Of a DNA stretch of 64,000 bases, positions 26,481 through 32,112 are shown piece after piece (positions within the stretch are counted from its first letter, which is position 1; every line of letters starts with the position of its first letter). This DNA comes from Halosimplex halophilum (GTDB taxonomy: Archaea > Halobacteriota > Halobacteria > Halobacteriales > Haloarculaceae). Location: positions 1-64,000 of the forward strand of contig NZ_ML214297.1 in NCBI RefSeq assembly GCF_004698125.1. The letters are read 5' to 3'. A program made the translations under genes and the position numbers. A model generated the notes under the pieces. That model saw only the letters and a list, made by a program, of their open reading frames with translations. It had not been told where the DNA came from and did not search any database.

Positions 26481-28148
26481 TCAGCCCTGTTCGTACTCGA
26501 CGCCCTTGCCGCCGCGGGGGTGGGTCCAGTCCGTGTCGGCGACGACGGCGCAGGTGCCACACTCCACGCAGGGCTGGGTGTCGAGGCTGACGACGTGTTC
26601 CTCGGTGCCGTTCGACCCGACGTACTCGTCGCGGTAGCAGCCCCCGCCGAAGTCCTTCGCGCTGACCGGACAGGCCGTCACGGCCGTCCCGCTGGCGGCG
26701 AAGGAGTTGTCCCGCAGTTCGATGTGAGGGTTGCCCTCGTCGATGTCGTAGGTCAGGTCGCCGATGCGGTCGTCCAGCTCCGGCGGCTCGACCGTGTTGA
26801 CCCCCTCGACGGGCTCGCCGAGCTCCTCCGCGATGACGGTCGGGACGGTGACGTAGCCCATCCGCGTGTCGGGGAGCATCCCCATCAGGAACGGGGAGTT
26901 GAACAGCGACTCGGCCCGATCCCCGAGCGCCGAGACGGCCGCGCGGCCGACGGCCGAGTCGGCCACGGCGTTCATCGCCGAGGCGACCGGGCCGACCTCG
27001 CCGAGCTTGCCGAGCGTCCTGTAGCGGGTCGGCCGGAGCTTGTCCATCACGCCCTCGTTCTCCAGTTTCGCCACGTAGCGCTCGCCCGCCGCCGACGTGT
27101 CCCCGCGGGACTTCGCGTCGACGAACGCCTCGGCGGCGAGCGCGCCCGCGGTGACGGCGTGGTTCATCCCCTTGATGATCGGCCCCTGGGCCTGCATCTG
27201 CCCGGCCGCGTCCCCCACGAGCAGGAGCCGGTCCCTGTAGGGCGAGGGGTGGGCCACCTTCTTCGAGTCCGGGACGAGCTTCGCCGAGTACTCCAGCTCC
27301 TCGTAGTCGTCGCCGAGCCAGTCCGCCAGTAGCGGGTGAGTCAGCAGTCCGTCGAGCAGCTGCTGGGGCTCGGCGCGCTCGTCGGCGATGGAGTCCAGGT
27401 GGAAGACGGTCCCGATCGACAGGGACTCGTCGTTCGTGTAGAGGAACCCGCCGCCGCGGACGTTCCGGAACAGATCGCCCGAGAACAGGTGCGCGACGCC
27501 CTCGTCCTCGTCGACGTTGAACCGGTCCTCGATGGCGCCGTCGGGCATGTCGACGACCGCCTTGACGCCCTGGAACCACTCGTCGGGCTCCTCCCAGTCC
27601 ATCAGGCCGGCGTCGCGGGCCAGCTCGGAGTTGACGCCGTCCGCGGCGATGACCACGTCCGCCCTGATGGGATCGAGTTCGTCGCAGGTGACGCCGACGA
27701 TCTCGGCGCCCTCCCGCAGCAGGCCGTTGACTCGGACCTCGGTCAGGAGGCCGCCGCCGGTCTCGCGGGTCATCTCGTGGACCTCGCGGGCGAGCCACGA
27801 GTCCATCTTCCGCCGGAGCACGGAGTCGGCCCACTCGGTGTCGTGGTGGTGCAGGTCCCCGAGGTCGAACGTCTTCACGTTCCGCCCGGCGACGTTGTGG
27901 ATGTAGTGGTCGGTGACCTCACGGTCGCTGGCCGCCTCGCGGAAGCCGGGGAACAGCTCGTCGATGGTGTACGGCGAGGACTCCTCGGCGTAGAGGAGTC
28001 CGCCGGACACGTTCTTGGAGCCGGCGTCGACGCCCCGCTCCAGGACCAGCGTCTCGATACCGTTGCGCGCCAGCGTGGCGGCCGCCGCCGCGCCGCCGGG
28101 GCCGGCGCCGACGACGACCGCCTCGTAGTGTTCGTAGTCGTCCGTCAT
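26481..28148 (-). CDS. fixC: ETF:quinone oxidoreductase FixC with fused FixX ferredoxin
   Basis: A 555-residue flavoprotein. FAD motif VVVGAGPGGAAAAATLAR (residues 9-26), the SKNVSGGLLY substrate/quinone segment, and LLLVGDAAGQMQAQGPIIKGMNHA near 330 identify FixC. The C-terminal 75 residues correspond to FixX: CPVSAKDF, then CVECGTC and the WxxPxGGxGVEYxxG end, giving ligands for one 4Fe-4S cluster. In many organisms FixX is a separate gene, so this is a FixC-FixX fusion. It passes electrons from FixAB to menaquinone at the membrane. Two nt separate it from fixB. Confidence 0.92.
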   Translation of the reverse strand: MTDDYEHYEAVVVGAGPGGAAAAATLARNGIETLVLERGVDAGSKNVSGGLLYAEESSPYTIDELFPGFREAASDREVTDHYIHNVAGRNVKTFDLGDLHHHDTEWADSVLRRKMDSWLAREVHEMTRETGGGLLTEVRVNGLLREGAEIVGVTCDELDPIRADVVIAADGVNSELARDAGLMDWEEPDEWFQGVKAVVDMPDGAIEDRFNVDEDEGVAHLFSGDLFRNVRGGGFLYTNDESLSIGTVFHLDSIADERAEPQQLLDGLLTHPLLADWLGDDYEELEYSAKLVPDSKKVAHPSPYRDRLLLVGDAAGQMQAQGPIIKGMNHAVTAGALAAEAFVDAKSRGDTSAAGERYVAKLENEGVMDKLRPTRYRTLGKLGEVGPVASAMNAVADSAVGRAAVSALGDRAESLFNSPFLMGMLPDTRMGYVTVPTVIAEELGEPVEGVNTVEPPELDDRIGDLTYDIDEGNPHIELRDNSFAASGTAVTACPVSAKDFGGGCYRDEYVGSNGTEEHVVSLDTQPCVECGTCAVVADTDWTHPRGGKGVEYEQG

Positions 28149-28150
28149 TG

Positions 28151-29821
28151 TCAGTCGTCGCTCGCCTCCGCGACCGCCGCAGCCAGTTCGCCCGACTCGA
28201 CCGCCTCGGTCAAGCGGGGCAACACCTCGAACAGGTCGCCCTCGATGAAGTAGTCGGAGAAGCCGCGGATGTCCGCGTCGGGGTCGGTGTTGACCGCGAT
28301 GATCGTGTCCGACTCGTCCATCCCGACCTTGTGCTGGATCGCCCCGGAGATGCCCGCGGCGATGTACACGTCCGGTTCGACGACCTGCCCGGACTCGCCG
28401 ATCTGGCGGTCCTCGCCGATGTAGCTCTCGACGTGGCCCTCGAAGTTGTACGAGGAGGTGATCACCCCCCGCGAGAGGCCGAACGCGGCGTCGTCGAACG
28501 CGTCCACGAGGTCGAGCCCGAGCTCGATCCCCTCGGTCGGGGCGTCGCCGATGCCGCGACCCATCGCGACGACCACGTCGTGGCCGGTCAGGTCGACGCC
28601 CGAGTCGAGCGTGTCGAACTCCGTCACCTCGACCTGGAACCACTCGTCGTCCAGGTCCATCCCGTACTCGACCACCTCGCCCTCGCGCTCGGGGTCGGGC
28701 TCGGGCAGGTCGAAACTGCCCGGGATGACGGAGGCGCCCTGCGGGTGGAAGTCCCGGAACGGCTTGTCGATACAGAGGATCGTCGAGTACTCGAACCCGG
28801 AGAAGTCCGGGCGCTTCATGTGCAGGATGCGCTCGAACTCCTTGCTGTCGCCCGGTTTCCCGGTCTTGGCCGGGTTGGAGATCATCGCCTCCTCGATGTA
28901 GAGTCCGGAGCAGTCCGAGGCCAGCCCCGAGTCGAGTTCGCCCTGCACCAGCGCCGAGAGGTCCCGGCCGTTGTTCGTCGCCGGGAACACCGTGTACCGG
29001 GGTTCGTCGTAGTCCTTCCAGTCCACGTCCTCGTGGCCCTCGTCGGCCACCTGCCCGCCCGCGCGGGCCATCGAGCAGAAGATCTCCGTGTACGGCTTGT
29101 GCCGGAACCGCTCCAGCCGGTCGTCTTCGAGGTAGACGACCCGGTCGGCGCCGTACTCGATGACCTGCTCCGTGAGGTCGCTCACCTCGTCGCCGATGAG
29201 GACCGCGACCACGTCCTCGGGCTCGCCGTCCTCGTCGCCGCCGTACTGGTCGTTGTAGTCGTCCATCAGCCGGCGGGCCTTGCCGAGCATCTCCATCGAC
29301 ACGTCGATGAGCTCGCCGTGCTGGGTCTCGCAGTAGACCCACATGTCGCGGTACTCGGCGTCTTCGAGGCTCTCGACCCACTGCTTGTCGTTGGTCGGGT
29401 GGTCGAGGTCGGGGTGTTTCTCCTCGGGCGGGACGTACTCCAGCTCCTCGCCCTCCTCCTCGCCGCTGCCCTCGACGGACTCGATGCGGTCCTCGATCTG
29501 GCCCTTCGCAGTCTTGCGGTCCTGCCCCTCCTTCTCGCGTTCGAGCAGGTCTTCGAGGACCGCCACGTCGTCGATGTCGCGGACCATGTTGGCGATGTCC
29601 GCGACGGTCAGGTCCTCGAGGTCGACGGACTCGGGGTCGACCTCCCCGTCGTCGCCCTCGACTTTCTCGATGCGGTCCTCGATGAGCGTCTTGACGGGAG
29701 CGCGGTCCTCGCCCTCCTCCTCCAGCTCCAGCATCTCCCGCAGCTCGTCGGCGTCGTCGATGTCCTTGATCTCCGGGCCCAGTTCGGCTATCTCGTGGTC
29801 TGTGGGGTCTATCTCGGGCAT
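28151..29821 (-). CDS. fixB: electron transfer flavoprotein alpha subunit FixB with N-terminal duplicated module
   Basis: A 556-residue FixB/EtfA. The ETF-alpha core starts near residue 155 (MWVYCETQHGELIDVSMEMLGKARRL) and the C-terminal FAD domain has GLSRGVITSS near 450 and the QIGESGQVVEPDVYIAAGISGAIQH signature near 470-495. Unusual is the first 125 residues, which contain two copies of a 39-residue acidic helical module (each with DIDD, ExExxGxDR and IEDRIExVEG). ETF-alpha proteins usually lack this part. It is 2 nt downstream of fixA and 2 nt upstream of fixC. Confidence 0.93.
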   Translation of the reverse strand: MPEIDPTDHEIAELGPEIKDIDDADELREMLELEEEGEDRAPVKTLIEDRIEKVEGDDGEVDPESVDLEDLTVADIANMVRDIDDVAVLEDLLEREKEGQDRKTAKGQIEDRIESVEGSGEEEGEELEYVPPEEKHPDLDHPTNDKQWVESLEDAEYRDMWVYCETQHGELIDVSMEMLGKARRLMDDYNDQYGGDEDGEPEDVVAVLIGDEVSDLTEQVIEYGADRVVYLEDDRLERFRHKPYTEIFCSMARAGGQVADEGHEDVDWKDYDEPRYTVFPATNNGRDLSALVQGELDSGLASDCSGLYIEEAMISNPAKTGKPGDSKEFERILHMKRPDFSGFEYSTILCIDKPFRDFHPQGASVIPGSFDLPEPDPEREGEVVEYGMDLDDEWFQVEVTEFDTLDSGVDLTGHDVVVAMGRGIGDAPTEGIELGLDLVDAFDDAAFGLSRGVITSSYNFEGHVESYIGEDRQIGESGQVVEPDVYIAAGISGAIQHKVGMDESDTIIAVNTDPDADIRGFSDYFIEGDLFEVLPRLTEAVESGELAAAVAEASDD

Positions 29822-31294: not shown

Positions 31295-31458
31295 GGTGTC
31301 TACACGGTCCACTCGTGTACACGTAAACCTTGCCCCGACCGACCGCCCGACCGCGCCCCGATCGGTGCGAGCGCCCGTCTCGCGGCCGAACGACCCCACG
31401 TCGAGCGGCCTCGGGACGGACGACGAAGTTCCCCGATCGCTCGCGACGCCGAGGCCGG

Positions 31459-32112
31459 TCAGCGGTCCGCGGAGGTGAGGATCGTGTTCGTGACGAGCCT
31501 GACGATGGCCCGGCGGAGCCGTTCGGTGACCGCCTGGTCGGAGATGTCCAGTTGCTCGGCCAGCTCGACGGTCGTGCAGTCGCGGGGGATGTCGTAGTAG
31601 CCCTCCTCGACCGCGAGGACGATCGCCTCCCGCTGGCGCTCGGTCAGCCCGAACCACGGCCCCAGGTCGGGTTTGCTTGGGTTGTACACCCTGATGACCT
31701 CGAAGCCGATCTCGCCCTCGCGGCACCGCTCCTGGAAGGTCGACATCGCGTCGTGGGAGGGAAAGCGCAGCTCGAACCGCCAGGACTCGCCCGTCCCGGT
31801 CGCGTTGAGGATGTAGGCGTTGACCGCGCGGATCGCCCGGAAGACGGCGTCGTTCTCGACCGACCACTCGAAGGTGTAGAGGACGCGGTCGTCGTAGGTG
31901 TCGATCTGGACGAGGTCGTCGACCGAGGGCGCCTCGAACACCGCCGCCTCGAACGCCTCGAAGTCCGCACCGTAGACCCAGAAAAAGGGGACCGCCCGCT
32001 CGCCCGTGGGGACGAGCGACTCCAGCTCGACCGTCCCCGAATCAGACACGTCCATGATACGTCCCAGCTCGAACTCCGTCGCGGGAATGCTAATCTCGGC
32101 GATGACGCTCAT
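31459..32112 (-). CDS. Bat-type HTH regulator (bacterio-opsin activator family)
   Basis: A 217-residue regulator. The N-terminal ~150 residues form the beta-rich Bat-like sensor domain ([17 protein letters not shown] start typical of this group, then [26 protein letters not shown]). The C-terminus is an HTH_10 domain: [48 protein letters not shown]. It lacks PAS/GAF input domains, so it is the short form. It lies upstream of the zinc ferredoxin and fixABC on the same strand and is a candidate regulator of them. A small palindrome lies in its upstream region. Confidence 0.87.

Follow-up and report, generated by a model that had tools for sequence, protein, structure and literature searches.

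A ferredoxin-linked Fix cassette with signatures of bifurcating electron transfer flavoproteins in Halosimplex halophilum and other haloarchaea

A cassette of Fix genes preceded by a ferredoxin gene was analysed in Halosimplex halophilum, within a stretch of 64,000 nucleotides (NZ_ML214297.1, positions 1 to 64,000; hereafter the window). It codes for a seven-iron (7Fe) ferredoxin, the electron transfer flavoprotein (ETF) subunits FixA and FixB, the latter extended, a fusion of FixC and FixX (FixCX), a protein here called d3 and, often, a protein called d6. With a probability of roughly 40%, these genes specify a haloarchaeal EtfABCX-type complex that descends from bifurcating ETFs and works by the mechanism proposed below. 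The basis of this reading is the gene content, a signature of descent, a linkage conserved by lineage and an obligate d3, all of which were observed here.

In the proposed mechanism, a two-electron donor (NADH in Thermotoga maritima) would reduce a flavin adenine dinucleotide (FAD) located where FixA and FixB meet. From the FAD of FixB, one electron would pass through the single 4Fe-4S cluster of FixX and the FAD of FixC to menaquinone, and the other would reach the neighbouring 7Fe ferredoxin, so that electrons of low potential would be available in the presence of oxygen; any zinc bound by the ferredoxin would be structural only. As for the flavin content, the donor, the reduction of quinone, the ferredoxin as acceptor and bifurcation itself, these are what we infer.

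The class sample comprised 116 haloarchaeal genomes, in which ferredoxin homologues were counted at E 1e-10 and window-type Fix was defined by a FixCX match at E below 1e-100. A ferredoxin was considered linked when located within 3 kb of a window-type FixCX. Families and genomes of this sample are designated by codes (f3, f6, etc., and G070, G114, etc., respectively). A second, named set contained 80 FixB loci, of which two share a chromosome record. Window-type FixCX was found in 62 of the 116 genomes, referred to below as Fix genomes.

Signatures of the Fix proteins

Judged by their sequences, the Fix proteins keep several signatures of the bifurcating type. The five PDB chains ranked first for the window FixA (6fah, 7koe, 5ol2, 7qh2 and 4kpu, E 6e-35 to 9e-22) all come from bifurcating or confurcating complexes, according to the PDB titles and to PMC5691135 and PMC9232219, and human ETF and 5ow0 matched at E 1e-4. 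For the window FixB, too, these five complexes lead, with their partner chains. An SPT motif is present in all five top FixA alignments and in none of the canonical 1o94, 1efp and 1efv. Together with the FixA Arg, which corresponds to R38 of T. maritima EtfA, the loop GLDGSPT[IV]V was found in 60 of the 60 Fix genomes with FixA read, two further reads being fragments from the Fix-less G114 and G063. RPDFSG is present in 59 of 61 FixB reads, the other two being pieces of 40 and 153 amino acids (aa), and the FixX motifs CPVSA and C[VI]ECGTC in 53 of 62, the nine remaining reads (355-483 aa) stopping before FixX. FixA, FixB, FixC and FixX parts are all encoded in one cluster, with C and X fused. 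The NCBIfam cut-offs were not reached, with 219 of 610 bits for PRK10157 (FixC) and 30 of 166 for PRK15449 (FixX).

The N-terminal extension of FixB (29372-29821, minus strand) is predicted by AlphaFold to form a pair of three-helix units, at residues 11-55 and 73-117, mostly with a predicted local distance difference test (pLDDT) of 78-91 by block, followed by an acidic linker of low confidence. It matched no Pfam family, a single row being at chance level. A phylum sample of 196 genomes gave FixB matches at E 1e-60 in 17, every one of them from the order to which H. halophilum belongs, weaker relatives outside not having been sought. As far as motifs and matches indicate, the cassette is a remodelled FixABCX of bifurcating descent, found here only in haloarchaea.

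The Fix-associated protein d3

Downstream of fixCX, the cassette extends into two more conserved genes, d3 and d6. The strictest partner of Fix is d3, far stronger by the same standard than the ferredoxin, and it had been missed by the earlier, sequence-only reading of this DNA. With a profile of 20 sequences run on whole genomes, d3 was found in all 62 Fix genomes with E values no worse than 8e-30, immediately after fixCX and on the same strand, with 0-191 bp between the matched stretches (median 21; the distance in G071 was taken from the second piece of a two-piece fixCX match). In the 54 genomes without window-type Fix, this profile found no comparable copy; four of them matched weakly (E 2.5e-10 to 4e-16), and G081 and G026 each have a second, likewise weak place. 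Since Fix loci supplied the sequences of the profile, the neighbourhood there was given by choice; the search itself spanned whole genomes. At loci with room for it, d3 follows fixCX in 73/73 named and 25/25 f3/f6 cases. No family above chance level was found for d3 in Pfam, NCBIfam, PHROGs or PDB, the NCBIfam rows being single-member or weak (best 0.0025, in one of the 20 members) and the best PDB value 0.18. As for d6, it lies downstream of Fix in 65 of 73 named loci and 4 of 25 f3/f6 loci, and its G070 homologue scores over the HTH_20 cut-off.

Linkage between ferredoxin and Fix

A ferredoxin is linked to Fix in 37 of the 62 Fix genomes, in 36 of them upstream and on the same strand. Linkage was seen in 0/24 genomes of f3, 0/1 of f6 and 37/37 elsewhere, across six family codes. 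The association of ferredoxin and ETF genes, for which the sequence-only reading had proposed a check in relatives, therefore holds in those 37 genomes and breaks down in two families (0/25). In Fix genomes with at least two ferredoxins, one copy is located at Fix in 16 of 16 cases. In the named set, 73 of the 80 loci have a ferredoxin and seven have none. The spacing between the matched ferredoxin and fixA stretches is 9-28 bp, and therefore operon-like, at five named loci (two Halobacterium, Haloarchaeobius, Halalkalicoccus and one metagenome-assembled genome, MAG), 98-609 bp at 61 and larger at seven.

Two main ferredoxin sites appear in the gene maps: site A, often beside gltX, where Fix lies, and site B, beside a PHP-domain gene (PHP over cut-off in G070). 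gltX is present at 19 of the 37 Fix-linked ferredoxin regions, and the PHP neighbour at 23 of the 27 ferredoxins of f3.

On a FixB tree of 59 of the 62 Fix genomes (midpoint root, G070 on a long branch), one split separates linked from unlinked genomes except for G070, which falls on the f3/f6 side with 100% in the Shimodaira-Hasegawa-like approximate likelihood ratio test (SH-aLRT). In this genome, a site-B ferredoxin paralogue lies just downstream of fixCX-d3-d6, apparently a second, independent association of ferredoxin and Fix. The ferredoxin tree of the whole class has 7 of 123 inner branches starred and mixes paralogues; it was accordingly rejected as a date for zinc changes and as proof that linked copies form one clade. 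The linkage state needs at least 10 changes on it, which is not a count of independent gains.

Ferredoxin and Fix may also have become neighbours in an early haloarchaeon and been retained by descent, the linkage then having no functional meaning. The single FixB-tree split, G070 excepted, would fit such a history of maybe few events, and the ferredoxin-tree changes, on poorly resolved branches, do not speak against it. It is nevertheless very improbable, as the genes upstream of the linked ferredoxin vary (gltX, a hydrolase-like gene, a regulator and others) while the ferredoxin-fixA pair stays, as G070 shows a separate association, and as canonical Fix is never linked. Canonical FixX, present in 17 of the 116 genomes (nine of which carry both Fix types), was not near a ferredoxin in any of the 13 genomes with both genes, the nearest being at 119 kb and two on other contigs.

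As a side observation, G009 and G108 have a zinc-type ferredoxin at Fix and one without zinc ligands at gltX. Ferredoxin and Fix were perhaps regained jointly there, even though their FixB remains grouped with that of two f4 genomes.

Evidence weighed against bifurcation

Several observations count against the bifurcating complex. The Group 2 motif RXGV of FixA keeps its Arg with the XGV part reading GxT, and RPXFGG of FixB reads RPDFSG, the critical Arg being kept. FixB R140 is essential for bifurcation in T. maritima, and it is found in other ETF groups too, hence not discriminating alone (residue and motifs from PMC10734219). In place of RPQMxTVRP of bifurcating FixB chains, HPQGxSVIPG is found, with two Arg replaced; its nine named residues are invariant in 28 sequences. 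A fourth Cys for a second FixX cluster after CxECGTC was found in 0 of the 53 reads reaching FixX, T. maritima EtfX having two clusters (PMC10734219). Structure was rejected as an arbiter: the AlphaFold model of FixA (pLDDT 77.8) reaches a VIA Z of 23.2 to 7koe_A, tied with canonical ETFs, and so does not separate them from bifurcating ones, and the FixB model (pLDDT 59.7), poor except in the N-terminal repeats and a portion of the FAD domain, is too poor for the flavin site.

At the level of the genomes, the Fix locus lacks a ferredoxin in 25 of the 62 Fix genomes. The gene order d7-d4-ferredoxin-fixA in Halalkalicoccus vs. d7-d4-fixA in f3 suggests that the ferredoxin was deleted from the Fix locus in the latter. 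In G114, a 129-aa frame (L070, 3284-3673, minus strand) holds FixA residues 1-84 (93% identical) running into the end of d6, next to an intact ferredoxin with its zinc ligands, and the remainder of this genome gave no match to FixCX or d3. Given this fusion and the intact ferredoxin, a single deletion appears to have run from within fixA through fixB, fixCX and d3 into d6, most of which is gone, and to have spared the ferredoxin. Moreover, a 7Fe ferredoxin is retained in 50 of the 54 genomes without window-type Fix; it is therefore not a dedicated part of Fix, contrary to the sequence-only reading, which had made it the dedicated ETF partner.

These points bear on a further explanation, in which a descendant of bifurcating ETFs is now a plain flavoprotein:menaquinone oxidoreductase serving acyl-CoA or other dehydrogenases, with the 7Fe ferredoxin as a general carrier kept by history. 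The retention of the ferredoxin in genomes without Fix, its near universality, the cassette loss in G114, the single FixX cluster and the altered motifs all fit it, as do 16 Fix-less ferredoxin loci with gltX in the region, like the linked site (14 with a tmcA-like gene too). It is unlikely all the same in view of an adjacency maintained across six family codes despite changing genes upstream of the ferredoxin, the operon-like spacing at five loci, the second association in G070, and the SPT loop and critical Arg kept in the reads covering them. With both sides considered, bifurcation by the haloarchaeal FixABCX is plausible, and the 7Fe ferredoxin is likely an electron partner of Fix, not an exclusive one.

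The ferredoxin and its zinc ligands

The window ferredoxin aligns nearly end to end with 1xer and 2vkr (E 3e-45 and 6e-45, respectively). Its H17, H20, H35 and D77 align with H16, H19, H34 and D76 of 1XER, named as zinc ligands in PMC2946596, and C46-D49-C52-C56 and C84-C87-C90-C94 are consistent with a 3Fe-4S and a 4Fe-4S cluster, so that the ligand and Cys patterns first read from the sequence were confirmed. The cut-off of NCBIfam NF041165 (ZFX_Thplmales equivalog), a model for Thermoplasmatales by name, was not reached (72.3 of 280 bits).

Ferredoxin homologues were found in 112 of the 116 genomes, at 134 places; the gene is therefore nearly universal in the sample. The eight cluster positions are invariant across these 134 copies and 1XER. 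The zinc ligands, counted over the same copies, are all-or-none: 70 have the full set (HHHD), 64 have none of H17, H20 and D77, and no intermediates were found. Among the named loci, the HHHD set is found in 47 of 73 ferredoxins, and in one other (HQRN) only one of H17, H20 and D77 remains. A zinc ferredoxin is hence not unusual in haloarchaea, as had been supposed at first, and ferredoxins of this kind were already noted in Halobacteriales genomes at sequence level (PMC2946596), in a class where 2Fe-2S ferredoxins dominate (PMC7039249).

Concerning linkage, 27 linked copies have the ligands and 10 do not, vs. 43 and 54, respectively, among unlinked copies; in Haloferax, the Fix-linked ferredoxin is without zinc ligands at 9/9 loci. 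The zinc state needs two to three changes on the ferredoxin tree, of which few branches are resolved. Zinc as a link to Fix was rejected, since 10 of 37 linked copies are without ligands; the tree offers only two independent pairs for comparing the two states. The all-or-none site does offer a natural comparison of the zinc centre's contribution.

Gene organisation in the window

The features of the cassette are listed in Table 1; the positions and the shared minus strand of the regulator, ferredoxin, fixA, fixB and fixCX genes were as first described.

Table 1. Features of the cassette and its surroundings in the window (Halosimplex halophilum, NZ_ML214297.1)
Feature	Position	Strand	Remark
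Bat-type (BAT + HTH_10) regulator	31459-32112	-	both Pfam domains over cut-off
7Fe (3Fe-4S + 4Fe-4S) ferredoxin, 109 aa, complete zinc-ligand set	30965-31294	-	1xer/2vkr matches
ferredoxin-fixA intergenic region: T-runs, TATA-like element about 45 nt before fixA	30721-30964	-	by eye
fixA, small ETF subunit, 298 aa, ATG at 30720	29824-30720	-	R28 and GLDGSPTIV kept
fixB, large ETF subunit, 556 aa: extension (residues about 1-150), then ETF alpha core	28151-29821	-	
fixCX, fusion of the FixC flavoprotein and a FixX domain whose Cys suffice for one 4Fe-4S cluster	26481-28148	-	
d3, Fix-associated protein, 132 aa, 39 bp after fixCX	26043-26441	-	no family found
d6, helix-turn-helix (HTH)-like N-terminus and GNAT acetyltransferase	25202-25933	-	start of d6 assumed

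On the minus strand, the genes are read in the order regulator, 164 bp, ferredoxin, 244 bp, fixA, fixB, fixCX, d3 and d6, with gltX upstream of the regulator and 2 bp between neighbours within fixA/fixB/fixCX. The 244 bp run from the ferredoxin stop to the fixA ATG, and a TATA-like element, judged by eye, precedes each gene; for these reasons, a single ferredoxin-fix operon and hence one transcript in the window are not favoured. The element before fixA and the T-runs are conserved, again by eye, in three Halosimplex species. The nearest named loci are from Halosimplex, FixB being 91% identical to that of H. carlsbadense in the best segment.

The Bat-type identity of the regulator was borne out, as HTH_10 and BAT score above the Pfam cut-offs. 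Its inclusion in the Fix module was rejected: at E 1e-8, the gene is present at only 4 of the 80 named Fix loci (three Halosimplex and one MAG), and screening the 134 ferredoxin regions at E 1e-5 gave no further case. In the unlinked set, three Fix loci contain Bat relatives at 28-35% identity, which say little because this family is large in haloarchaea.

Ferredoxin oxidation and wider meaning

Were bifurcation to take place, the complex would be a widespread one of aerobic archaea (62/116 haloarchaeal genomes sampled) and would supply low-potential electrons to cells for which PMC8305020 lists ferredoxin re-oxidation as unresolved. The fuller proposal, that aerobic haloarchaea own an oxygen-tolerant bifurcating FixABCX (a fused FixCX with one cluster, an extended FixB and d3 as an obligate fifth component) which would feed 7Fe ferredoxins whose zinc site was gained or lost as a whole in several lineages, is put forward tentatively and with more doubt than the complex itself.

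Electrons could also flow the other way, FixABCX consuming reduced ferredoxin and passing its electrons into menaquinone or, by confurcation, into NADH, which would answer the re-oxidation question. In aerobic haloarchaea, 2-oxoacid oxidoreductases reduce ferredoxin and Nuo is without NuoEFG (PMC8305020), which together with the linkage to Fix would suit such a role. So would the seven COX1 matches in the H. halophilum genome and the absence of a COX1 match in three of the four ferredoxin-less genomes. COX1 is present in 8/8 tested ferredoxin-bearing genomes. The proposal is nonetheless rather improbable: the ferredoxin of these oxidoreductases is Fdx (PMC8305020), of 2Fe-2S type (PMC2946596), not the 7Fe one, and with 54 of 116 genomes lacking window-type Fix this is not a general route.

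Canonical FixX is present in 4/4 ferredoxin-less genomes vs. 13/112 others (Fisher p 0.0003, not corrected for kinship). Two of the COX1 matches, with equal scores, lie on one contig (G000 C4:8201-9523 and C4:249688-251010), a possible duplication or assembly redundancy. In Haloferax mediterranei, HFX_1925-1927 (FAD oxidoreductase, FixB- and FixA-family), with terminal oxidase genes, changed in an Lsm mutant under nitrogen deficiency (PMC10779274).

FixABCX with proposed bifurcation has been described in natronoarchaea (PMC6176080). No description of the ferredoxin-Fix linkage, the fused one-cluster FixCX or d3 was found among the open-licence literature matches listed and the passages taken from them, which is no proof of absence.

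Comparison with known systems

The window FixA has its best PDB match in the ETF of caffeyl-CoA reductase CarCDE (6FAH, E 6e-35). That ETF works with an acyl-CoA dehydrogenase-type partner, not with FixCX. By contrast, the canonical ETF pair of the same genome (L229) ranks 1o94 first (E 5e-68), together with 1efp and 1efv, and 6fah fourth.

The same genome also has a canonical haloarchaeal FixABCX (L228, 3463-6999, minus strand; G000 C1, about 1837.5-1841.0 kb), which is not near a ferredoxin. It follows the same subunit logic, its FixA ranks the same five bifurcating or confurcating chains first in the PDB, and its FixC is 38% identical to that of the window over residues 2-370. Unlike the window type, it has a separate FixX with eight cluster Cys and a FixB with RPAFGG and no extension. 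It is possibly like AArc1_1630-3 of PMC6176080.

The Sulfolobus zinc ferredoxin (1XER, 2VKR) shares its near full-length alignment and all zinc and cluster ligands with the window ferredoxin, whereas the haloarchaeal family includes members without zinc ligands (64/134) and has 37 of its 134 copies beside Fix.

Finally, the T. maritima EtfABCX and bacterial FixABCX (7KOE; PMC10734219) have the same FixA, FixB, FixC and FixX-like parts, an Arg close to the bifurcating FAD in each ETF subunit and the GxxGSPTxV loop. In the window, FixC and FixX are fused, with Cys for a single 4Fe-4S cluster where T. maritima EtfX has two, and the haloarchaeal FixB has an extension of about 150 aa and the RPDFSG variant, RGxT being the other motif variant. 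The haloarchaeal type is further set apart by its obligate d3, which would be a component without counterpart in the T. maritima complex, and by a ferredoxin gene present in cis in many families.

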